The notes under the pieces were generated by a model. It ran no database searches and was not told where the DNA came from. It worked only from the letters and a program-made list of their open reading frames with translations. A DNA stretch of 47,000 bases from Chthoniobacteraceae bacterium (GTDB lineage: Bacteria; Verrucomicrobiota; Verrucomicrobiia; Chthoniobacterales; Chthoniobacteraceae). Below, in pieces: positions 3,983 to 46,885 of this stretch. Each line of letters begins with the position of its first letter. The stretch's first letter is position 1. The stretch spans positions 1 through 47,000 of the forward strand of contig CANJNZ010000030.1 in the NCBI GenBank assembly GCA_947476045.1. Direction: 5' to 3'. A program made the position numbers and the translations under genes.

Positions 3983-6092
3983 GCCGATCACTGCCAAGCG
4001 CAGCACTGCCGCTGAGGCGGAGGATAAAGCCAGGAAAGTCGCTGCCGAAAAGGCCGCACCAAAAAAGGCTGTAAAAGAAAAAGCAAAGCCGGCGGAAACG
4101 GTTTCGCTGATTGACGGACCTGAAAAGCCGAAGAAGCCCCGCGAGCGAACACAGTCCACGCTAAACAACCGCATCGCGCTGCCAAAAATCATTGGCAGCA
4201 TGTCTCCCGCCGAGCCAGTAGCAGCGCCGGAGCCTGTGGCACCGCCGCTGCCTGCGAATACCACGACCGGAGTCAACGAGAGCGGCGAAAAGATTTTGCA
4301 CATCAAGTCGCCAATCATTGTCAAGGACCTGGCGACGGCGATGCAACTCAAGCCTTTCAACCTCATCAAGGATTTGATGAGCATGGGGATTTTCGCGAAC
4401 CAGAATCAGACCATCGAGCCCGATGTCGCTGCAAAGGTTTGTGAAAAGAACGGCTGGAAATTTGAAAAGGAGAAGCGCGAAAAAGGAGCGGGAGTCCACA
4501 AACCCGACCAGAAAGTAGAGGCCCCGCCACCACCAAAGAAAGAGCAGATCGCCTCGAAGCCTGACGAACTGAAGCACCGCGCACCAATCGTCGTTTTCAT
4601 GGGCCATGTGGACCACGGCAAGACGACGCTGATGGATACGATCCGCAAAACGCGTGTCGCCCACGGTGAAGCGGGCGGGATTACGCAGCACATCGGCGCC
4701 TACTCCGTCAAACACAAGAGTAAGGACGGCAAGGAGCACACGATCACATTCCTCGATACGCCGGGCCATGCCGCATTTACATCCATGCGCGCACGCGGGG
4801 CGAACGTCACAGACATCGTCGTGCTCGTCGTGGACAGCGGCGACGGCATCATGCCGCAGACTCTCGAAGCACTCAGCCATGCGAAGGCAGCGAATGTGAA
4901 AATCATCGTGGCGATCACAAAGATTGATATGCCGAACGCCAACGTGGATCGCGTCAAGGGCCAGCTTCAGGAGAAAGGTCTCACACCGGAGGACTGGGGA
5001 GGCGAAACCATCGTGTGCCCCGTTTCTGCAGTCAAAGGCACCGGCCTCGACGCACTACTCGAAAGCATCCTGCTCGAAACCGAGATGCTTGAATTGCGTG
5101 CCAGTGAGAGCGTGCCAGCGCGCTGCACCGTCATCGAAGCGCAAGTCGAACAAGGACGCGGCCCCACCGCAACTGTGATCGTTCGCATGGGCACTTTAAA
5201 AATCGGCGACCCATTCATCTGCGGCGACTACTCGGGCAAAGTGAAAGGCCTCGTGGATGAGTTCGGTAAAAACATGAAGCAAGCGGGCCCTGCGACACCG
5301 GCAAAAGTGATCGGGTTCAGCGGAATGCCCAATGCCGGCGACGAGCTCCTCGTCATGGAAAACGAGAAGACGGCACAGCAACTCAGTCAAGATCGTCTGG
5401 AGGAAAAACGCCTTGGCAAACTTACTCAGCCGAAGCGCGCCACGCTCGAAAATCTTTTTGCGACCATTGCCGATGGTAAGAAGCCCACGCTCAATCTTGT
5501 CGTCAAAGGCGACGTGCAGGGCTCAATGGAAGCCATCATCACTTCCGTCGGACAAATTGACAGCCGCAAGGTGGACTTGAATATCGTGCACTCTGCAGTG
5601 GGCGCCATTACAGAAAACGACGTCCTCCTCGCAGCGGCGAGCAACGCGGTGGTCATCGGCTTTAATACCAAAACAGAAAATAATGCAGCACATGCAGCGA
5701 AGCGTGAAGGCGTGCAGATTAAACTTTTCTCCATCATCTACGAGCTGATCGATCAGGTGAAGGAAGCAATGGCAGGATTGCTCGAACCCGAGAACCGCGA
5801 ACAGGTCATCGGCCACGCACAAGTGAAACAGGTTTTCGACCTCACCAAGGGAGTCGTCGCAGGTTGCTATGTGAACGACGGACGCATCGCGCGCACCGGT
5901 CGCGCCCGTTTACTTCGCAACCGCCAGCCAATTTACGATGGCGGGCTCGCAACACTGCGCCGTTTCCAGGACGATGTGAAAGAAGTCCGTAGCGGTCTCG
6001 AGTGCGGTATCAAACTCGGCGACTACAACGACTACGAAGTCGGCGACATCATCGAGTGCTACTTACTGGAAAAAGTGCCACAGACACTGTGA
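3912..6092 (+). CDS. infB: translation initiation factor IF-2
   Basis: IF-2 is the GTPase that brings initiator tRNA to the ribosome and promotes subunit joining. The 726-residue protein has a Lys/Pro/Ala-rich low-complexity N-terminus (about 1-125), an IF2-N domain (about 131-185), the G domain, the beta-barrel domain II, domain III and the C-terminal initiator-tRNA-binding domain. G1 is GHVDHGKT (231-238) and G3 is DTPGH. G5 is SAVKG. The G4 motif is TKID (336-339) instead of the usual NKID. The start at 3912 is fixed by an in-frame TGA at 3891. It lies 31 nt after nusA, and the nearby Shine-Dalgarno better fits an ATG at 3890 in another frame. Confidence 0.97.
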
Positions 6093-36684: not shown

Positions 36685-36881
36685 AAACCGCAGATATACG
36701 CAGATGCAAAGACAAGGGGATTTAAAAAACACACGAAGGAATGGGATGGCTTAGGAAAGCAGGAAGAGAGGAAAGCGGACCTGCCTTTCCTGCCTTCCTG
36801 CCTTCCTTAGCAAAAAATGAAAATCCCTTCGTGATTCATCCGCATCACCCATCTGCGCACATCCGCGTAAATCTGCGGTTT
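36685..36881. repeat. ~197-bp imperfect palindromic element between dus and rlmN
   Basis: The outer arms (36685-36706 and 36860-36881) are inverted repeats matching at 20 of 22 positions. Next inward, CACGAAGG near 36732 mirrors the block ending in CTTCGTG at 36828-36833. The core arms (36749-36777 and 36783-36811) are purine- and pyrimidine-rich mirror images around 36780 with a few mismatches. The outer arms contain phrases like ATCTGCG and ATCCGCG, which recur elsewhere in the window. No transposase or flanking target-site duplication is obvious. Confidence 0.7.
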
Positions 36882-36894
36882 AAAATGCGCCGTC

Positions 36895-38001
<1,107 letters not shown>

Positions 38002-38024: not shown

Positions 38025-38429
38025 TTAAAACGGTAGTGACGGCGGTAGTGACACCATCGGGTCGAGCAGATGAAGTTGCTCCGGCGTGCTCGCCAGTATC
38101 GCAACAGAACTCTCCCGTAAGAATATTGCAAAGCCACCTTTGGGAAAGACCATGCCCCTTTGTCGAAACCAGTCCGCAACATCTGTTTGTTTTCCTTTCG
38201 CTTCGGGAAAGGCCTTCGGATTCATGGCATACACACGAGCAACGCATCCGCGCGGAACCGGTGGTAATTCAAAGTAAATCGGAGGGCCTATTTCGATTGA
38301 TTTCACAAGGCGCGTTTCTCTCAGCGCAGTTGGTTTGGATGTAACGCTACAGCTACATAGCGCAACCGTGAGACAGGCTGAAATGATGAAGCGTGCTGGC
38401 GTAAAAGGTCGAATGGCGGGAGAGAGCAT
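38025..38429 (-). CDS. putative lipoprotein of unknown function
   Basis: From ATG 38429 (MLSPAIRPFTPARFIISA) the protein has 134 residues, with a hydrophobic N-terminus ending in a lipobox-like VALCSC, so it is probably a lipid-anchored periplasmic or outer-membrane protein. The remainder (for example PIYFELPPVPRGCVARVY) has no recognised domain. An upstream ATG at 38504 is less likely because it displaces the signal peptide. It is convergent with rlmN and faces the DUF2442 cassette across a 205-bp repeat-rich gap. Confidence 0.6.
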   Translation of the reverse strand: MLSPAIRPFTPARFIISACLTVALCSCSVTSKPTALRETRLVKSIEIGPPIYFELPPVPRGCVARVYAMNPKAFPEAKGKQTDVADWFRQRGMVFPKGGFAIFLRESSVAILASTPEQLHLLDPMVSLPPSLPF

Positions 38430-38475
38430 CGGCGTGGTTTTTACGCGGACAGTAATAAGGGGCAACGCAATTATC

Positions 38476-38606
38476 GGGCAAGACGCGCTTTCCCAACTAT
38501 TCACCAGTCACGGGAGCGGAGCGACCCCTCACAGCCCCGCCGGATGCCGGAGGCTGTAGTGGCTGGCAGGGCGGCTTTTGGCAGTCAGCCCACTCGCGTC
38601 TTGCCC
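38476..38606. repeat. 12-bp perfect inverted repeat enclosing repeat copy 1
   Basis: GGGCAAGACGCG (38476-38487) and its exact reverse complement CGCGTCTTGCCC (38595-38606) bracket the first 54-bp direct repeat copy and its small hairpin. The second copy at 39156 does not show the same arms. Confidence 0.6.
38526..38579. repeat. 54-bp direct repeat, copy 1
   Basis: This copy matches bases 39156-39209 at 49 of 54 positions, and the offset is exactly 630 bp. It contains a hairpin ACAGCC/GGCTGT with an inner CCGG-ATG-CCGG stem. It lies 55 nt before the DUF2442 start. Confidence 0.85.
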
Positions 38607-38634
38607 TGAGAAGAAAACTGAGCATCCTTTCCGC

Positions 38635-38889
38635 ATGAAGAGGCCAGTCAGAATCGAAGCACTTTCAGGGTTTCGCTTTCGCGTCGCGTATCCCGACGGC
38701 GTTGAGGGTGTGATTGACCTTTCCGCCGACGTTGGGCGCGGTGTTTTTACGCCACTGGCGGACGAGGCCTTCTTCCGCACTGTCCACATCGGGCAGTTCG
38801 GCCAGATCGCGTGGTCCGAGGACATCGAAATTTGCCCCGACGCCGCTTATCAAGAGATCGTCCACTCAACGGTGCCAGCCCATGCCTGA
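38635..38889 (+). CDS. DUF2442 family protein
   Basis: The 84-residue protein starts at ATG 38635 (MKRPVRIEALSGFRFRVAY). It matches the DUF2442 pattern: a beta-strand start, YPDGVEGVIDLS, FTPLADEAFF, and the closing WSEDIEICPDAAY. The family has no proven activity but is widely found beside DUF4160 proteins in pairs resembling toxin-antitoxin operons. The next gene, DUF4160, overlaps its end by 8 nt. The pair is enclosed by direct repeats at 38526-38579 and 39156-39209, hinting at a mobile cassette. Confidence 0.85.
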   Translation: MKRPVRIEALSGFRFRVAYPDGVEGVIDLSADVGRGVFTPLADEAFFRTVHIGQFGQIAWSEDIEICPDAAYQEIVHSTVPAHA

Positions 38890-39142
38890 GGTCAGCCGCT
38901 TTTACGGCATCATCGTTCGCTTCTATTACCGCGATCACCCGCCCACTCACTTCCACGCCATTTACGGCGAGCACGAGGCACTCATCGAGATCGAGACTGG
39001 TGCGATTTACGAAGGCTACTTACCCGGAACTGCGTATGACCTCGTCAATCGCTGGCGAGCCATTCACATGGAAGAGCTACGGAACGACTGGAACCGCGCG
39101 AGGCAGCAAGAGCCACTTTTACCAATCGCGCCGCTTGAGTGA
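38882..39142 (+). CDS. DUF4160 family protein
   Basis: The 86-residue protein begins MPEVSRFYGIIVRFYYRD and carries the DUF4160 hallmark PTHFHAIYGEHEALIEI, followed by VNRWRAIHMEELRNDW. In this family the N-terminal part and the conserved HFHA segment suggest a small alpha/beta fold. It overlaps DUF2442 by 8 nt, so the two are probably translated together. Members of this pair are predicted, not proven, to be toxin-antitoxin-like. The gene ends 13 nt before the second direct repeat copy. Confidence 0.85.
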   Translation: MPEVSRFYGIIVRFYYRDHPPTHFHAIYGEHEALIEIETGAIYEGYLPGTAYDLVNRWRAIHMEELRNDWNRARQQEPLLPIAPLE

Positions 39143-39155
39143 AGCCCAGTGCCTA

Positions 39156-39209
39156 CCCTCACAGCCCCGAGGGATGCCGGATGCTGTAGCGGCTGGCGGG
39201 GCGGCTTTT
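39156..39209. repeat. 54-bp direct repeat, copy 2
   Basis: This is the partner of the copy at 38526-38579 (5 differences). On the minus strand it supplies the last roughly 16 codons and the stop (39159) of the NlpC/P60-like gene, a tail reading KSRPASRYSIRHPSGL. Copy 1 would encode a near-identical tail in the same orientation. Confidence 0.85.
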
Positions 39210-39662
39210 TGTTGTCCAGCGCGGGCCTTCATTCTGGTCGTGCCAGCCGGTGTCGAAGCGCAGTCCGGCGACGACGAGGAAGACGTGGCCGGATTTCGCA
39301 TACACGCTGATCCATTTCCCAAGCCCACGCGTTCCGTAGTGACGGAAACTCGTGGAAGTTTCGAAGCCGCGCAGCAATCCCGCTTCGCGCAAAACGTAGG
39401 ACGCCGCGCCGGAGCAATCGTAGCCCGAATCAATCCCATCGCATCGTCCCCCGCCGTAGCAGTAGGGCAGGCCGGCGATGCGATTCCCGGCGGCGATGGC
39501 CGCATGGACGACTGCGGGCGCGGATTCCGGCGCGCTGGCGTAACCGCCGCTGAGCGTCGCCGTCCTTCCCCGCACGTAGCGGTATTCGTAGCGGGTGGAC
39601 GAGCAGCCGCTGAGAAACAGCAGGGCACAAAACGCGAGCAGGGCGATGAATGGGCGAAGCAT
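39159..39662 (-). CDS. NlpC/P60-like lipoprotein, C-terminus formed by a repeat
   Basis: The 167-residue protein has a lipoprotein signal (lipobox LSGC, lipidated Cys20). The papain-like NlpC/P60 peptidase core has the nucleophile Cys83 in YDCSG and the catalytic His126 in SGHVFLVVAG. A Cys-rich loop (YCYGGGRCDG) precedes the nucleophile. It could be a peptidoglycan endopeptidase anchored in a membrane. The last ~16 residues are encoded by the direct repeat copy 2, so the original C-terminus seems to have been replaced or extended. It is divergent from the ABC-F gene. Confidence 0.85.
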   Translation of the reverse strand: MLRPFIALLAFCALLFLSGCSSTRYEYRYVRGRTATLSGGYASAPESAPAVVHAAIAAGNRIAGLPYCYGGGRCDGIDSGYDCSGAASYVLREAGLLRGFETSTSFRHYGTRGLGKWISVYAKSGHVFLVVAGLRFDTGWHDQNEGPRWTTKSRPASRYSIRHPSGL

Positions 39663-39758
39663 GGCGGGCCTTGGCTAAAACTTTCTGCGGCGGAGATGCA
39701 ATGATTCTCTCGCCCAAGGCGGACGGCTCGTCTAACACCTCGCCCCCGATTTTTTAAA

Positions 39759-41363
39759 ATGCTCACAATCCGCGATCTCAAAGTCTCCGCCGGTGGCCGC
39801 ATGCTCTTCGAGGGCGCGTCCATGACTGTCAACTACGGCGAACGCGTCGCACTCGTCGGCCCGAACGGCGCAGGCAAGTCCACGCTCTTCTCGATCATCC
39901 TGCGAGAAAACGATCCCGACTCCGGCGTGATGGAGCGCGATGCGTGGACGATGGTCGGCTACCTCCCGCAGGAGGGCGAAGTCGTCGGCGAAGAAACCGT
40001 GATGGACGTGGCGACCGGGCGCGCTGGCGAACTCCCCGCACTCGAAGCGCGGCTGCATGAGTTGGAAAAAACAGGCAGCGTGGATTCGCCCGAATACCTC
40101 GAAGCCCACGCCAAGCACGAAGCGCTGAGCAACCCGCAAGTGGAGGCGAAGGCGAAGAAAATCCTGCGCGGCCTCGGCTACCGCGATACGGATTACGATC
40201 GCAAGGCGAAGGAACTCAGCGGCGGCTGGGTGATGCGCGCACACCTTTCCCGCCTTCTCGTGATGGAGCCCGACCTCCTCCTGCTCGACGAGCCGACGAA
40301 CCACCTCGACCTGCTCTCGCTGCTCTGGCTCCAGCAGTATTTGAAAAACTATTCCGGTGCCGTCCTCCTCATCTCGCACGACCGGCAGTTCATGGATGAG
40401 ATCGTGCAGAGCGTGTATGAAATCGCCGAGAAAAAGCTGCACAGCTTCACCGGCAACTACACCGATTACCTCCGCCAGAAAGAAGAACGCTACGAGCAGC
40501 AAAACGCCTCCTACAAAAACCAGCAGAAGGAAATCGAAGCGTTGCAGGAATTCGCAGACCGCTTCCGCAGCGTCGCCTCGAAGGCCTCGCAGGCGATGAG
40601 CAAGCTCAAGCAAATCGAGCGCATGGAGCTGATCGAAAAACCCGTGCCGCCGAAGAAACCCTTCCGCTTCCAAATCCCGCAGCCGCCCCGCATCGGCCAG
40701 CGCGCCATGACCCTCGAAGGCATCCACATGGCCTACGGCGCGACACAGGTTTATCGCGGCCTCGATCTCACCGTCGAGCGCGACGAACGCACCGTGCTCG
40801 TCGGCCCCAACGGCGCAGGCAAATCCACCCTGCTCAAAATCCTCGCAGGCATCCTCGATTTCCAAAAAGGCACACGCACCCCCGGCCTCAACGCCAAGAT
40901 CGGATACTTCAGCCAGCACCGCTCCGCCACGCTCGACCCGAATAAAAACGTTCTCCAGGAAGTCATGGAAAGCGGCAAGGATCTCAGCGAAAACGAAGCG
41001 CGCGGCATCCTCGGCTCCTTCCTCTTCCGCAAAGACGATATCTACAAAAAGACCGACATCCTCAGCGGCGGCGAAAAGACACGCCTCAACCTCATCAAAT
41101 TCCTCGTGGACCCGCCGAACCTCCTCCTCATGGACGAGCCCACCACGCATCTCGACATCCACAGCGTCGAATCCCTCACCCTCGCACTCAGCTCCTACGG
41201 CGGCACCCTCGTCTTCATTTCGCACGACGTGCACTTCATCCGCAAACTCGCCACCAAAGTCCTCCACGTGAATAACGGCCAGGTCACCCCCTACCCCGGC
41301 GGCTACGACTACTTCCTCGAAAAAACCGCCGCCGGCGACGAACGCGCCGCCATCACCGCGTAA
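39759..41363 (+). CDS. ABC-F family ATPase
   Basis: The 534-residue cytoplasmic protein has two ATP-binding cassettes and no membrane segments. Both Walker A loops are GPNGAGKST. Both signatures are seen (LSGGWVMRAHLSRLL and LSGGEKTRLN), each followed by LDEPTNHLD or MDEPTTHLD. The interdomain linker (about 240-300, with SKASQAMSKLKQIERME) is the P-site tRNA interaction motif. ABC-F proteins act on the ribosome, rescuing or regulating translation; some give antibiotic resistance. The subfamily (Uup, EttA, YbiT or resistance) cannot be fixed by eye, though the linker resembles YbiT-type proteins. Confidence 0.93.
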   Translation: MLTIRDLKVSAGGRMLFEGASMTVNYGERVALVGPNGAGKSTLFSIILRENDPDSGVMERDAWTMVGYLPQEGEVVGEETVMDVATGRAGELPALEARLHELEKTGSVDSPEYLEAHAKHEALSNPQVEAKAKKILRGLGYRDTDYDRKAKELSGGWVMRAHLSRLLVMEPDLLLLDEPTNHLDLLSLLWLQQYLKNYSGAVLLISHDRQFMDEIVQSVYEIAEKKLHSFTGNYTDYLRQKEERYEQQNASYKNQQKEIEALQEFADRFRSVASKASQAMSKLKQIERMELIEKPVPPKKPFRFQIPQPPRIGQRAMTLEGIHMAYGATQVYRGLDLTVERDERTVLVGPNGAGKSTLLKILAGILDFQKGTRTPGLNAKIGYFSQHRSATLDPNKNVLQEVMESGKDLSENEARGILGSFLFRKDDIYKKTDILSGGEKTRLNLIKFLVDPPNLLLMDEPTTHLDIHSVESLTLALSSYGGTLVFISHDVHFIRKLATKVLHVNNGQVTPYPGGYDYFLEKTAAGDERAAITA

Positions 41364-41464: not shown

Positions 41465-41573
41465 AGGAGCCTGAACGCCCGCCGCCGACGGACTGACCAC
41501 CGCCCACTTCACGCCCATCCCCATCGCCTCATTGTATACGGCGGAGGCAAGCTGGGAGACATCCATGCACTTT

Positions 41574-41951
41574 GAAGGAACTCTCCCGCGCCTTCCAAGG
41601 ACTCATCTCCCCCCTCCAAGGACTCATCTCCCACCTCCATGGACTCATCTCCCGCCTCCATGGACTTATCTCCCGCCTCCAAGGACTCATCTCCCAGCTC
41701 CATGGGCTCATCTCCCGGCTCCATGGACTCATCTCCTGCCTCCAAGGACTCATCTCTCGGCTCCATGGACTCATCTCTCGGCTCCATGGACTCATCTCCC
41801 GCCTCCATGGACTCATCTCTCGCCTCCATGGACTCATCTCCCGCCTCCATGGACTCATCTCCCGCCTCCATGGACTCATCTCCCGCCTCCATGGACTCAT
41901 CTCCCGCCTCCAGTGACCTTATTCCCGTCTCCGGTAACGTTACTCCGGCTC
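41574..41951. repeat. 21-bp tandem minisatellite
   Basis: Fifteen well-matched 21-bp units (consensus CCATGGACTCATCTCCCGCCT, with CCAAGG variants) run from 41595 to 41909 in perfect register. One degenerate unit precedes (41574-41594) and two follow (to about 41951). Because 21 is a multiple of three and the unit has no stop in several frames, long frames stay open on both strands (heptapeptides such as MDSSPAS, GLISRLH, THLPPPW; on the minus strand MEAGDES and MSPWRRE). I do not call any of them as a gene. The gap 41364-42196 otherwise holds only short-period repeats. Confidence 0.9.
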
Positions 41952-42196
41952 CCAAACTCGCGCACCCCGCCAATCCGCAATCCGAAATCCACGATCCTCA
42001 TTCGAAGCGCCCCGCAACTTCGTGCCCTTCGCGTCCCCGTGGTTGACTGCCCCATTCAGCAATGGATGAAAATGACGCGCATCACACACCCCTCCCGTTG
42101 ACAGGGCTATTTCCATTCGTTAAATACGCGCGAACGATGCCGCACGATGACTCTCGTGCATATTCCGCCTCACCGATTCTCCTGCGCTCTTTCACC

Positions 42197-45100
42197 ATGA
42201 AATCCGACACATCTCCAGCGCGACACACGCTGGCGAGCCGTGCCTTTTTCATCCTCGCTGTGCTCGGCGGGCTCTTCCTCGCGGGCGTTTCGCACGCGGC
42301 AAATGTCACCGCCACCTTCAACAGCGCAGCCGACATCCCCGTCACCGCCAACGGCTACACCGCCACCGGCAACACGCTCGATGTCACGCTCAACTTCGCC
42401 CCCACCCCCGGCACCAATCTCACCGTCGTCCGCAACACCGCGCTCACTTTCATCAACGGCCAGTTCAGCAACGTCGCCAACGGCGCGACGCTCAACCTCA
42501 CCTACAACGGCACCACCTATCCCTTCGTCGCGTGGTATTACGGCGGCACTGGCAATGATCTCGTGCTTCTGTGGCCTTACACGGGGCTCGCTGCTTGGGG
42601 CTATAACGACAACGGTCGGCTTGGTGATAATACGACAATGACCCGTCGCTCTCCAGTTCCTGTAGTTCAGGCAGGAGTCTTAGCTGGCAAAACTATCGTT
42701 CAATTGGCGCGAGGCGGAGGGCACACATTAGCACTAACGAGCGAAGGCAAAGTCTACTCTTGGGGTTACAACCAATTCGGAGGACTCGGCGATAGCACAT
42801 CAATAGATCGCCTTGAACCCGTAGCCGTAAATACAGCCAACGGATCTAGCGCACTTTTTGGGAAAACGGTCATCGCCATTGCAGCCGGAAATGCTCATAG
42901 TCTGGCGTTATGCTCTGATGGTTCAATAGCAGCTTGGGGTTACAACGTTTACGGCCAGATTGGCGACGCCACGACGACTGATCGCCTTTCACCTGTAGCT
43001 GTAAACACGGCAAGCGGAACCAGTTTTCTTTTCGGTAAATCTGTCACAGCCATCGCTGTAGGCTCGATGCATAATCTCGCCTTGTGTTCGGACGGCACAG
43101 TGGCGGCTTGGGGCCTCAATTCAAACAACCATCTCGGGGACACCACATATATCAATCGTAGTTCACCGGTCGCAGTGAACACGGTCGCCGGGACGAGTAT
43201 ATTGTATGGAAAAACGGTTACAGCACTTGCTGCAGGCAACCAACACAGTCTCGCCTTATGCTCCGATGGCACAGTGGCGGCATGGGGTGCCAATAATAAC
43301 GGTCAACTTGGCGATAACTCTACTTTCCCTCACTCTGTGCCAGTAGCGGTCAACACAACCAGTGGAACCAGCGCAATTTTTGGAAGAGTTGTAACATCTC
43401 TCGCTGCTGGCGACTCACACAGCATCGCCCTCTGCTCAGACGGCACAGTTGTGGCTTGGGGTGCCAACAATTACGGCCAGCTGGGTGATAATTCGGGGAC
43501 GCAGCGAAATGCGCCGGTTAACGTCAACACTGCCAGTGGAGTCAGTGCGCTATTCGGTAAGTTTGTGACGGCCATAGCGACTGGTTACTTCAATAGTCTG
43601 GCCCTCTGTTCCGACGGCTCAGTGACAGCTTGGGGCGAGAACGGCAACGGCCAAGTCGGCGACAATACGAATATCTATCGCTCTGCACCAGCGGCAGTGA
43701 ACACAAACAGCGGAACCAGCGCCCTTGCTGGGAAGCATGTTTCTGGATTGGGAGCATCTGGTTCGTCTAGCAGCCACTTTGTGGCTGCTTACGGAACGAC
43801 AGCCCCAGAGATTGCAGTCGAGGTGCTAGAGCCTTCTGTCATGCCTTTGGTAGATAATGCGAATACTTTGGACTACGGCATAACACCCTACGGTGTTCGC
43901 ACATTCCGAATACGCAACGAGGGTGGCCTGCCACTCAACGGCGTGTCTGGAACTTTGTCGGACACTAATGTCGAAGCCTTTTCCATCAGCCAGCCTCCCT
44001 CGTCAATACCGCCGGGAGGAACAGCAATAATCCAAGTTGTTTTTGCATCGGAAACGGCAGGGGCCAAAAGTGCAAAACTCGAAATTTCAAGCAACGACAG
44101 CGATGAAAATCCTTTCCGAATCGCACTGACAGGCACAAGACCCTCGCTCTCCGACCTTACTGCAACTTTTAGCTCAGCCAGCGACATACCGCTCACTGCT
44201 TTTGGCTTCAACGCAAGCGGCATCGCTCTCAATACTACACTGAATTTCGCACCGAATCCCGGGACGAATCTGACAGTCATACGAAACACCGGCACAAACT
44301 TCATTCGTGGTCAATTCAGCAATGCGCCCAACGGGGCGACGTTAAATCTGACTTATAACGGCACAATTTATCCCTTCGTCGCGTGGTATTACGGCGGTGC
44401 GGGCAGAGACCTCGTGCTGCTATGGCCATACACGGGCCTCACCGCATGGGGTTCAAACAACCGCGGACAACTGGGTGATAATTCGCCGACGCAGCGCAAC
44501 GCACCGTCGTTTGTAGAGCAAAGCGGGGCACTGAACGGCAAGACCATCGTGCAAGTAGTATGTGGCGGCAGTCACACTTTGGCGCTTACCAGCGAAGGGA
44601 AAGTCTATGCGTGGGGGTATAATTTCTATGGCCAGCTTGGAATCAACTCGACAAGCGACAGCTACGCCCCAGTGGCAGTGAACGCAGATGCTGGTTCCAG
44701 TGCCCTCTTCGGTAAAACAGTCATAGCCATTGGAGCCGGCTCTATACACAGCCTTGCTATGTGCTCCGATGGCACAATTGTAGGATGGGGTGACAACTCA
44801 TACGGTCAACTCGGCGACAATACTACCACACAGCGCAATACTCCGGTGGCAGTGAACACAGCCAGTGGAACCAGTGCGCTCTTTGGGAAAACGGTCACTG
44901 CTGTCGCGGCAGGAGGTTTTCACAGCTTGGCTGTGTGTTCTGATGGCACTGTAGCAGCGTGGGGTAGCAACAATTACGGCCAACTCGGAGACAACACATC
45001 GATGCCTCACTACGCGCCAGTGGCAGTAAACACGACCAGCGGAACCAGTGCTCTCTTTGGAAAAACGGTCACTGCCGTCGCAGGAGGCGGTTCCCACAGC

Positions 45101-46885
45101 TTGGCCCTATGTTCGGACGGGGCCGTTGTGGCTTGGGGCGATAACAACGGCCAACTCGGCAATAACTCAGGAACGTGGAGTTTTGCACCGGTGGCAGTAA
45201 ACACCACAAGTGGAACCAGCGCACTTTTTTCAAAAGCAGTCACGGCCATCTCTGCGGGGGGGAAACACAGCGTCGCCCTGTGCTCCGACGGCACGGTGGC
45301 AGCCTGGGGTGAGAACTTTTACGGCCAGCTCGGTGATAACACGAATACCTATCCTAACACGCGAAATGTGCCGACAGCAGTAAACACAACCACAGGCATC
45401 AGCGCGCTGTATTCCAAAACGGCCATAGCCATCGCTGCTGGCAGTGCCCATAGCCTTACACTTTGTTCCGACGGCACATTGGCAACTTGGGGAGACAACT
45501 CTTACGGGCAGCTTGGTGATAACACCACAACACAGCGCAGAGCACCAGTCACAGTCAATACGGCCAACGGAATCAGTGTTCTGAGTGGACGAATTGTGAA
45601 GGCTATCAATTCCTCGGGAACGCAATCAGGTCATTCGACTGCGGTCTACGGACTCTTGCCACCCAAGATCGAAATCGAAGTTTTGGAGCCTGTCCTCACA
45701 GCGTTGGCGGATAATGCAAACACCCTAGACTACGGCGCAGTATTGAGTGGTGTGCGAACGATCCGAATCCGCAATACAGGTGAGGCTCCGCTTATAGGGA
45801 TAAGCGCTGCGCTGACTGGTGTGAATTCATCTGACTTCGCAATAGCCAGCCCCACTTCAATGACAATATCAGGGGGGAATTCTACTACATTCCAAGTGGC
45901 TTTTAGCCCAGGAAGTGACGGGCTTAAAAATGCCGCGCTTGTCATAGCCAGTAGCGACGCAAGCCAACCCTTATTTCATATCGCTCTGACAGGGATGAAG
46001 CAGTCGAGCACAAGCATTGCAGCGACATTAAACACACCCAACGATGTCCCCCTGGCTACGTCTGGACTCAATGCGTCCGGACTGACGCTCGATCTGACGC
46101 TCAATTTTACACCATCACCCGGCACTAATCTAACCATCGTGCGCAACACTGGACTTGGTTTTATTAATGGCGCATTCACTAACGCACCCAACGGTGCGAC
46201 AGTGAACCTCACCTATAACGGAAAAACGTATCCTTTTATTGCATGGTATTACGGAGGTGATGGAAATGACCTCGTTCTGCTCTGGCCTTACACGGGCATC
46301 GCTGCATGGGGACAAAATACCTACGGGCAACTCGGCGAGGATGCTACAGTTAATTATTTTACCCCAAAAGCTGTTGATCAAACTGGTGTGCTGGCGGGCA
46401 AAACGATCGTGCAATTAGTGTGCGGCGGAAGCCATTCGCTTGCATTGAGCAGCGAAGGAAAAGTTTATTCTTGGGGAGACAATGGCAGCGGTCAACTCGG
46501 TGATAATACAACAACGCGCCGTAATAAGCCAGTGGAGGTGAACACAGCAAATGGAACCAGCGCACTCTTTGGAAAAAATGTAATAGCCATCGCAGCGGGC
46601 GAAGCTCACAGCCTCGCACTGTGTTCTGACGGCACCGTTGCTGCCTGGGGCTTGAACTACCTAGGTCAAATCGGCGACAATACGACTACCAGCCGCAATA
46701 CCCCGGTGCTAGTGAACACCCTCGGCGGAACAAGCGCGCTCTTTGGAAAAACAGTCTTAGCCATAGCGGCAGGCTACTCACACAACCTTGCCCTCTGCTC
46801 CGATGGAACAATAGCCACCTGGGGAGGGAACGGCCTTGTGCCCGTGTCGGTTAAGGAAACGCTGATTAAAGAGGTGATCGTCTGA
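42197..46885 (+). CDS. giant secreted RCC1-propeller / choice-of-anchor-D protein, C-terminally truncated
   Basis: From ATG 42197 the 1562-residue product has a signal peptide (FFILAVLGGLFLAGVSHAA). It is built of a ~619-residue unit: a beta module ending WYYGG-x-G-x-DLVLLWPYTG, seven RCC1 blades (W-G-x-N, G-Q-L-G-D, L-C-S-D-G-T) and a choice-of-anchor-D/HYDIN-like Ig module (NTLDYG...). Unit 1 runs about 42301-44150, unit 2 about 44155-46010. Unit 3 starts at about 46015 and stops in blade 4 at 46885, so two full seven-blade propellers and part of a third are present. RCC1 folds bind proteins; the target is unknown. There is no C-terminal sorting domain. The frame is open upstream to 42062, but the signal peptide favours 42197. 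Confidence 0.9.
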   Translation: MKSDTSPARHTLASRAFFILAVLGGLFLAGVSHAANVTATFNSAADIPVTANGYTATGNTLDVTLNFAPTPGTNLTVVRNTALTFINGQFSNVANGATLNLTYNGTTYPFVAWYYGGTGNDLVLLWPYTGLAAWGYNDNGRLGDNTTMTRRSPVPVVQAGVLAGKTIVQLARGGGHTLALTSEGKVYSWGYNQFGGLGDSTSIDRLEPVAVNTANGSSALFGKTVIAIAAGNAHSLALCSDGSIAAWGYNVYGQIGDATTTDRLSPVAVNTASGTSFLFGKSVTAIAVGSMHNLALCSDGTVAAWGLNSNNHLGDTTYINRSSPVAVNTVAGTSILYGKTVTALAAGNQHSLALCSDGTVAAWGANNNGQLGDNSTFPHSVPVAVNTTSGTSAIFGRVVTSLAAGDSHSIALCSDGTVVAWGANNYGQLGDNSGTQRNAPVNVNTASGVSALFGKFVTAIATGYFNSLALCSDGSVTAWGENGNGQVGDNTNIYRSAPAAVNTNSGTSALAGKHVSGLGASGSSSSHFVAAYGTTAPEIAVEVLEPSVMPLVDNANTLDYGITPYGVRTFRIRNEGGLPLNGVSGTLSDTNVEAFSISQPPSSIPPGGTAIIQVVFASETAGAKSAKLEISSNDSDENPFRIALTGTRPSLSDLTATFSSASDIPLTAFGFNASGIALNTTLNFAPNPGTNLTVIRNTGTNFIRGQFSNAPNGATLNLTYNGTIYPFVAWYYGGAGRDLVLLWPYTGLTAWGSNNRGQLGDNSPTQRNAPSFVEQSGALNGKTIVQVVCGGSHTLALTSEGKVYAWGYNFYGQLGINSTSDSYAPVAVNADAGSSALFGKTVIAIGAGSIHSLAMCSDGTIVGWGDNSYGQLGDNTTTQRNTPVAVNTASGTSALFGKTVTAVAAGGFHSLAVCSDGTVAAWGSNNYGQLGDNTSMPHYAPVAVNTTSGTSALFGKTVTAVAGGGSHSLALCSDGAVVAWGDNNGQLGNNSGTWSFAPVAVNTTSGTSALFSKAVTAISAGGKHSVALCSDGTVAAWGENFYGQLGDNTNTYPNTRNVPTAVNTTTGISALYSKTAIAIAAGSAHSLTLCSDGTLATWGDNSYGQLGDNTTTQRRAPVTVNTANGISVLSGRIVKAINSSGTQSGHSTAVYGLLPPKIEIEVLEPVLTALADNANTLDYGAVLSGVRTIRIRNTGEAPLIGISAALTGVNSSDFAIASPTSMTISGGNSTTFQVAFSPGSDGLKNAALVIASSDASQPLFHIALTGMKQSSTSIAATLNTPNDVPLATSGLNASGLTLDLTLNFTPSPGTNLTIVRNTGLGFINGAFTNAPNGATVNLTYNGKTYPFIAWYYGGDGNDLVLLWPYTGIAAWGQNTYGQLGEDATVNYFTPKAVDQTGVLAGKTIVQLVCGGSHSLALSSEGKVYSWGDNGSGQLGDNTTTRRNKPVEVNTANGTSALFGKNVIAIAAGEAHSLALCSDGTVAAWGLNYLGQIGDNTTTSRNTPVLVNTLGGTSALFGKTVLAIAAGYSHNLALCSDGTIATWGGNGLVPVSVKETLIKEVIV

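Follow-up and report, generated by a model that had tools for sequence, protein, structure and literature searches.

In the 47,000-nucleotide stretch of Chthoniobacteraceae DNA analysed here (hereafter the window), two small genes lie between a pair of direct repeats. The insert between the repeats (38580..39155, plus strand, 576 bp) consists of a toxin-antitoxin (TA) operon and little else: its GC content of 58% equals the window mean, and neither a transposase nor an integrase or recombinase is found in it, the two TA genes being all it has. The first gene (38635..38889, plus strand) encodes an 84-aa DUF2442 protein resembling the antitoxin DhiA (Pfam PF10387, E 6e-7, 30 bits against a cut-off of 23.9), and overlaps by 8 bp with a gene on the same strand (38882..39142, plus strand) for an 86-aa DUF4160 protein resembling the toxin DhiT (Pfam PF13711, E 9e-18, above the gathering score). 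The first-pass annotation of this DNA had described a TA-like unit, and the relationship of the two proteins to DhiT/DhiA bears this out. Measured against NCBIfam, the DUF4160 protein matches DhiT at E 2e-21 with 76 bits (equivalog cut-off 100) and the DUF2442 protein matches DhiA with 17 bits (equivalog cut-off 200); both scores lie below the cut-offs, and by sequence the window proteins count as relatives of the Dickeya pair rather than as its equivalogs.

DUF4160 and DUF2442 make up the DhiT/DhiA TA family, for which growth inhibition by the toxin and its relief by the partner have been shown in Dickeya and E. coli (PMC8198452). A Thermus plasmid module with the same domains raises plasmid persistence, a plasmid without the second gene yields no transformants, and toxicity of DUF4160 with relief by DUF2442 has been suggested for Thermus as well (PMC12724237). 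The window pair shares with Dickeya dadantii dhiTA and with the Thermus module the small adjacent DUF4160 and DUF2442 genes and a conserved toxin motif, but it has the antitoxin first, whereas Dickeya and Thermus have the toxin first. Both orders are common, antitoxin-first accounting for 41 and toxin-first for 59 of 100 pairs. The motif H-x-P-x-HFHA-x-Y is invariant across 37 aligned proteins, the window toxin included. Both TA genes are intact in our genome and in its sister species, and both are held by purifying selection, with dN 0.005 and dS 0.093 between the two species for the toxin gene (dN/dS ~0.05) and dN 0.021 and dS 0.106 for the antitoxin gene (dN/dS ~0.2). By analogy with the characterised systems, the pair presumably works as toxin and antitoxin here too. 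The predicted model of the toxin is confident (pLDDT 95), but nothing in the PDB matches it convincingly (best Z 4.5), and the toxin sequence has no relative of solved structure; a search against an anti-phage library gave zero matches.

The right, or inner, repeat copy (39156..39209, minus strand) comprises the terminal 51 bases of an NlpC/P60-like gene, stop codon included, and 3 further bases; on the minus strand it reads ...KSRPASRYSIRHPSGL and the stop, the C-terminus of an NlpC/P60-like lipoprotein. The left, or outer, copy (38526..38579) is a non-coding duplicate of this 3′ end, which encodes the similar tail KSRPASHYSLRHPAGL and a stop without any gene attached. The copies are identical at 49 of 54 positions (91%) and spaced by 630 bp, exactly as the first-pass annotation had placed and measured them, and their alignment score of 41.5 compares with a maximum of 12.5 among 500 dinucleotide shuffles. 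As read from the sequence, the left copy departs from the gene at five bases, two in first, one in second and two in third codon positions, a spread that is expected of an unconstrained copy. Weaker similarity between the copies runs about a dozen bases past the stop codon (AGCGCAGCG.CC), which brings the total to as much as ~68 bp.

Further copies of the repeat, for which the first-pass annotation had suggested a search, do not turn up: with a 71-bp query and a degenerate pattern, only the two copies are found in our own genome (4.37 Mb, 123 contigs), the next matches being chance ones of 14-29 bp. A match of the degenerate pattern on contig C50 is another, unrelated locus. With two copies only, the repeat also lacks the many copies per genome that define the REP type, and it is not the terminus of a mobile element. 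The hairpin that had been proposed as a recognition site fares no better, as both copies fold no more strongly than shuffled sequence (z -1.3 to +0.4, both strands, as DNA or RNA) and a terminator search gives no matches above expectation; a hairpin or terminator in the repeat is rejected on these results. Sites of the attC type (RYYYAAC...GTTRRRY) have zero matches at window positions 38300-39900. Elsewhere in the window, an intergenic segment at 36744-36815 (minus strand) gives weak Rfam matches to several microRNA families, all below gathering scores; it is probably just a strong hairpin, unrelated to the repeat.

The gene whose end is duplicated (39159..39662, minus strand) is intact and encodes a 167-aa NlpC/P60-like lipoprotein with a weak Pfam match to NLPC_P60 (E 0.015, below cut-off). 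It is present in most genomes of the family, with orthologues 94% identical in a third species of the genus and 41-71% identical in other genomes, and its C-terminal pattern, ...SRPA..RHPxGL and the stop (SRPA..xRHPxGL), recurs in orthologues across the family; no NlpC-like gene was found in viral contigs. To the left of the outer copy lies a short unit that we call U (TTCCCAAC..TCACCAGTCAC.GGAGCGCAGCGACC, 38492..38526), which is single in our genome and in the third species and doubled in the sister species. The left neighbour is a gene for a radical-SAM protein (36895..38001, plus strand; Pfam Radical_SAM), by our reading presumably RlmN-like, and it anchors the same site in both of these species, with DNA 96% identical. 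Farther to the right, a 21-bp unit is repeated in tandem about sixteen times inside an ORF at 41531-42013 (reading frames of the MSPWRRE / DESMEAG type), and the array adjoins a 1607-aa ORF (42062-46885) with many internal repeats, which to our reading look RCC1-like.

We compared the site in nine other genomes of the same genus, among them the sister species (G001) and the third species (G006), our own genome being G000. Among the nine, G001 has the pair at the same site with both repeat copies, presumably joined to the NlpC-like gene as here, its contig stopping inside the inner copy. The right, coding copy, of which G001 has 53 bases, is identical to ours over that length, whereas the left copy has lost 11 bases and has two changes in common with our left copy. 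Since both species have the pair and both copies, and the left copies share two changes, the arrangement is older than the split between them; and since the left copies differ by the 11-base loss while the right copies are identical, the non-coding copy is the decaying one. Beside the DhiT/DhiA pair, G001 has a second TA pair, a PemK-type toxin with a small partner gene, which is framed by the doubled U (L021:600-1450, contig C64) and adjoined by a 36-bp DUF4160 remnant. Because of this PemK-type pair, the doubled U and the remnant, small TA units seem to have entered the interval between the radical-SAM and NlpC-like genes on more than one occasion, which would make it an insertion hotspot.

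In G006, whose assembly is a draft (76% complete, 410 contigs), the NlpC-like gene has a single copy of the repeat and no pair, and the next gene is one that from its translated sequence we take to be rpsL, instead of the radical-SAM gene. The latter is on another contig (C159), followed by U, a third, much decayed copy of the 54-mer (L104:5304-5350; 0 of 500 shuffles reach its score) and a trypsin-like protease gene. The breakpoints of this apparent rearrangement fall at the repeats. The state of G006 may be due to rearrangement, to loss or to an effect of draft assembly. No clean empty site was found among the same-genus genomes examined, the single-copy site of G006 not being collinear, and in seven other same-genus genomes that have the NlpC-like gene the pair was not seen adjoining it, the sequence that follows being different in each. 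The first-pass annotation had set a mobile cassette against a repeat absent elsewhere and a pair fixed at this site in all relatives: the first half of this is borne out, as the repeat is found nowhere else in our genome, while the second is not, since the pair stands at the site in G000 and G001 and was not found beside the gene in G006 and these seven.

Do such scars recur elsewhere? Similar ones, at gene or tRNA ends, do flank other DhiT/DhiA and ParE pairs in distantly related bacteria. Our survey covered 110 DUF4160 loci, 100 of which have an adjacent DUF2442, and repeats were scored within 300 bp of the pair in 96. A strong direct repeat surrounds the DhiTA pair in 10/96 cases, versus 2/770 windows of the same geometry. 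Each locus has a repeat of its own, in several cases a gene end that has been duplicated so as to enclose a bare pair, and in seven cases the insert measures only 576-690 bp. In an Acidobacteria MAG (L127:3791-3817 and 4635-4709), a DhiT/DhiA pair lies between a tRNA-Glu gene and a perfect copy of the 3′ end of that gene (27/27 bp), in an 817-bp insert in which no integrase is seen. Single TA pairs are found with a duplicated 3′ end of an M23 peptidase gene (L166, 37 bp) and with a duplicated 5′ end of a gene that on reading we take to be aroC (L197, 89 bp). That flanking repeats are specific to DhiTA is ruled out by the control ParE toxin family, whose pairs in the phylum have them equally often (14/88); the scars are therefore not special to DhiT/DhiA. 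At ParE-type pairs of Verrucomicrobiota, the duplicated sequence is the 3′ end of an AAA ATPase gene (L316, 1405-1476/2099-2174), of an HhH-GPD glycosylase gene (L266, 1141-1216/1935-2010) and, in two related species, of a radical-SAM gene (L234 and L238); the ParE survey also contains, slightly below threshold, a duplicated 5′ end of a CoA-transferase gene (L273). Our own genome has, on contig C26, a 77-bp direct repeat around a cluster with ParE-type genes (L269:851-927 and 2018-2094).

How strong this excess appears depends on the comparison. When TA pairs are compared with the remaining small genes of these loci, which are mostly drafts, repeats are found at 25/185 versus 8/114 (nominal p = 0.06). 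For the gene-end class only, the counts are 12/185 versus 3/114 (nominal p = 0.11), in an automatic count that includes some doubtful ORFs and misses both the window and L127 because the gene caller picks the wrong ORF or calls no tRNAs. Seven of the eight control repeats come from three loci, L172, L184 and the cassette array L125, and among less strictly chosen small genes 3/263 have repeats, against the 10/96 of the DhiTA pairs (nominal p = 0.0002). The excess at TA pairs is strong against random windows and only marginal against other small genes. By eye, some of the counted repeats are REP-like (L175, L184, L239 and L247). Flanking repeats occur at 0/9 TA pairs of E. coli K-12, and on viral contigs 0/28 pairs have a repeat score >= 25 within 300 bp; E. 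coli has no DNA resembling the Photorhabdus pair. The cassette array (L125:1496-4330, Spartobacteria MAG CAIPWR010000154.1) is integron-like, with small cassettes and attC-like repeats of 58-92 bp (GYCTAACC...CGTTAGRC), and its last cassette holds the closest relative of the window toxin found outside the genus (88%). Integron TA cassettes use attC recombination sites, whereas the window repeat is a gene end, not a repeat of the attC type; an integron is a plausible vehicle for such pairs within the group, but not the source of the window repeat, since positions 38300-39900 are without attC-like sites.

The first-pass annotation had suspected an insertion or duplication behind the repeats, which their appearance supports, and we lean towards an old insertion of a bare DhiT/DhiA-type operon that duplicated its target and is now vertically inherited. 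The bare operon, ~0.6 kb long and lacking its own recombinase, would have entered the NlpC/P60-like gene at its 3′ end and duplicated ~54 bp of its target, or up to ~68 bp if the weaker match past the stop codon is counted. One copy would still end the gene, which explains how the gene survived intact, and the other, non-coding copy would have stayed beyond the operon and decayed. The insertion would have taken place before G000 and G001 split, followed by vertical inheritance with the TA genes under purifying selection. As to the duplication itself, a recombinase supplied in trans may have used the gene end like an att site, a circle may have integrated by homology, or the operon may have come in by insertion with a long target duplication; a recombinase in trans would give an identical scar. 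Nor need the bias towards gene ends imply site recognition, because insertions in mid-gene would be removed by selection. The left copy could instead be what remains of an earlier segmental or tandem duplication that took in the end of the NlpC-like gene, chance or unequal crossing-over having brought the pair to its place between the repeats. This would fit the decayed third copy in G006, which lies beside the radical-SAM gene without the pair, as well as the DUF4160 remnant further out in G001, which implies that a second copy of the toxin gene was once there. However, the homology of the copies ends at 54 bp (at most ~68 bp), no gene body remains beside the outer copy, and a similar layout recurs at unrelated TA pairs and unrelated genes; we consider such a history unlikely and infer that the repeats were made by insertion rather than by segmental duplication.

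Gene 3′ ends, including those of tRNAs, are typical att sites, at which the footprint is a duplication from the crossover to the gene end, and TA pairs are common island cargo. The intact gene with its duplicated 3′ end, and likewise the tRNA 3′ end at L127, would agree with the remnant of a site-specific integrative element, in which a recombinase put a larger island at the gene end, the repeats being attL and attR, and all but the pair was later deleted. Integrative elements, however, have a recombinase, whereas the window insert is a TA pair only, with no recombinase or other island gene between the repeats in either G000 or G001, and some of the surveyed cases lie at 5′ ends. A decayed island is made less likely still by the seven inserts of 576-690 bp, all pair-sized, a coincidence not to be expected if each had decayed separately, and we regard this origin as decidedly improbable. 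The first-pass annotation had favoured a cassette that still moves, the pair excising and re-inserting as the repeats recombine, with the hairpin serving for recognition. Direct repeats do frame the pair, and its closest relative outside the genus is part of the integron-like array in L125, but the repeat turns out to be a unique gene 3′ end plus one stray copy, it shows no excess folding, positions 38300-39900 have no attC signature, and the 11-base deletion that breaks the outer copy in G001 largely refutes this reading, to which we attach very little probability. Hardly credible at all is an ordinary dispersed intergenic repeat of the REP-like kind that overlaps the gene end by accident: repeats of this kind flank TA pairs at L184, L175, L239 and L247, but the genome has two copies of the 54-mer only, one of them protein-coding sequence conserved across the family. 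Insertion of a bare operon with target duplication is the most economical account.

Insertion with a long target duplication has been described for restriction-modification genes (Nobusato et al. 2000, as cited in PMC3874152 and PMC1643837). As far as these citing papers describe it, the likeness lies in a small operon within direct repeats that duplicate the target, are long and variable (of the order of 100 bp) and are linked to no known mobile element. In the window, too, direct repeats within the range of tens to ~100 bp duplicate the target, the inner copy being the gene 3′ end and the outer copy its duplicate. The present cases differ in that the operon is a TA operon, the duplications measure 27-89 bp and are mostly of gene ends, and there is as yet no pair of strains with a clean empty site. 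Among open-licence papers, to which our literature search was limited, there is no report of such insertion for TA operons.

Finally, how TA operons enter genomes was named as unsolved in a 2020 review. Taken alone, the window is a modest find, with a known TA family, an unusual scar and a hotspot beside a cell-wall-type gene, and its value lies in the recurrence of the scars. Target-duplication scars at bare TA operons, at unrelated gene ends and in several phyla, would make the question of TA entry testable by comparison of strains with and without the insert, and would connect TA operons with what is known of how restriction-modification genes behave. It is possible, if doubtful at present, that in several families the TA operon is itself a minimal mobile unit, which at 0.5-0.8 kb inserts bare and with a target duplication of 25-90 bp, usually keeping a gene or tRNA end intact, by the same process as restriction-modification genes. 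If true, this would answer how solitary TA pairs spread.
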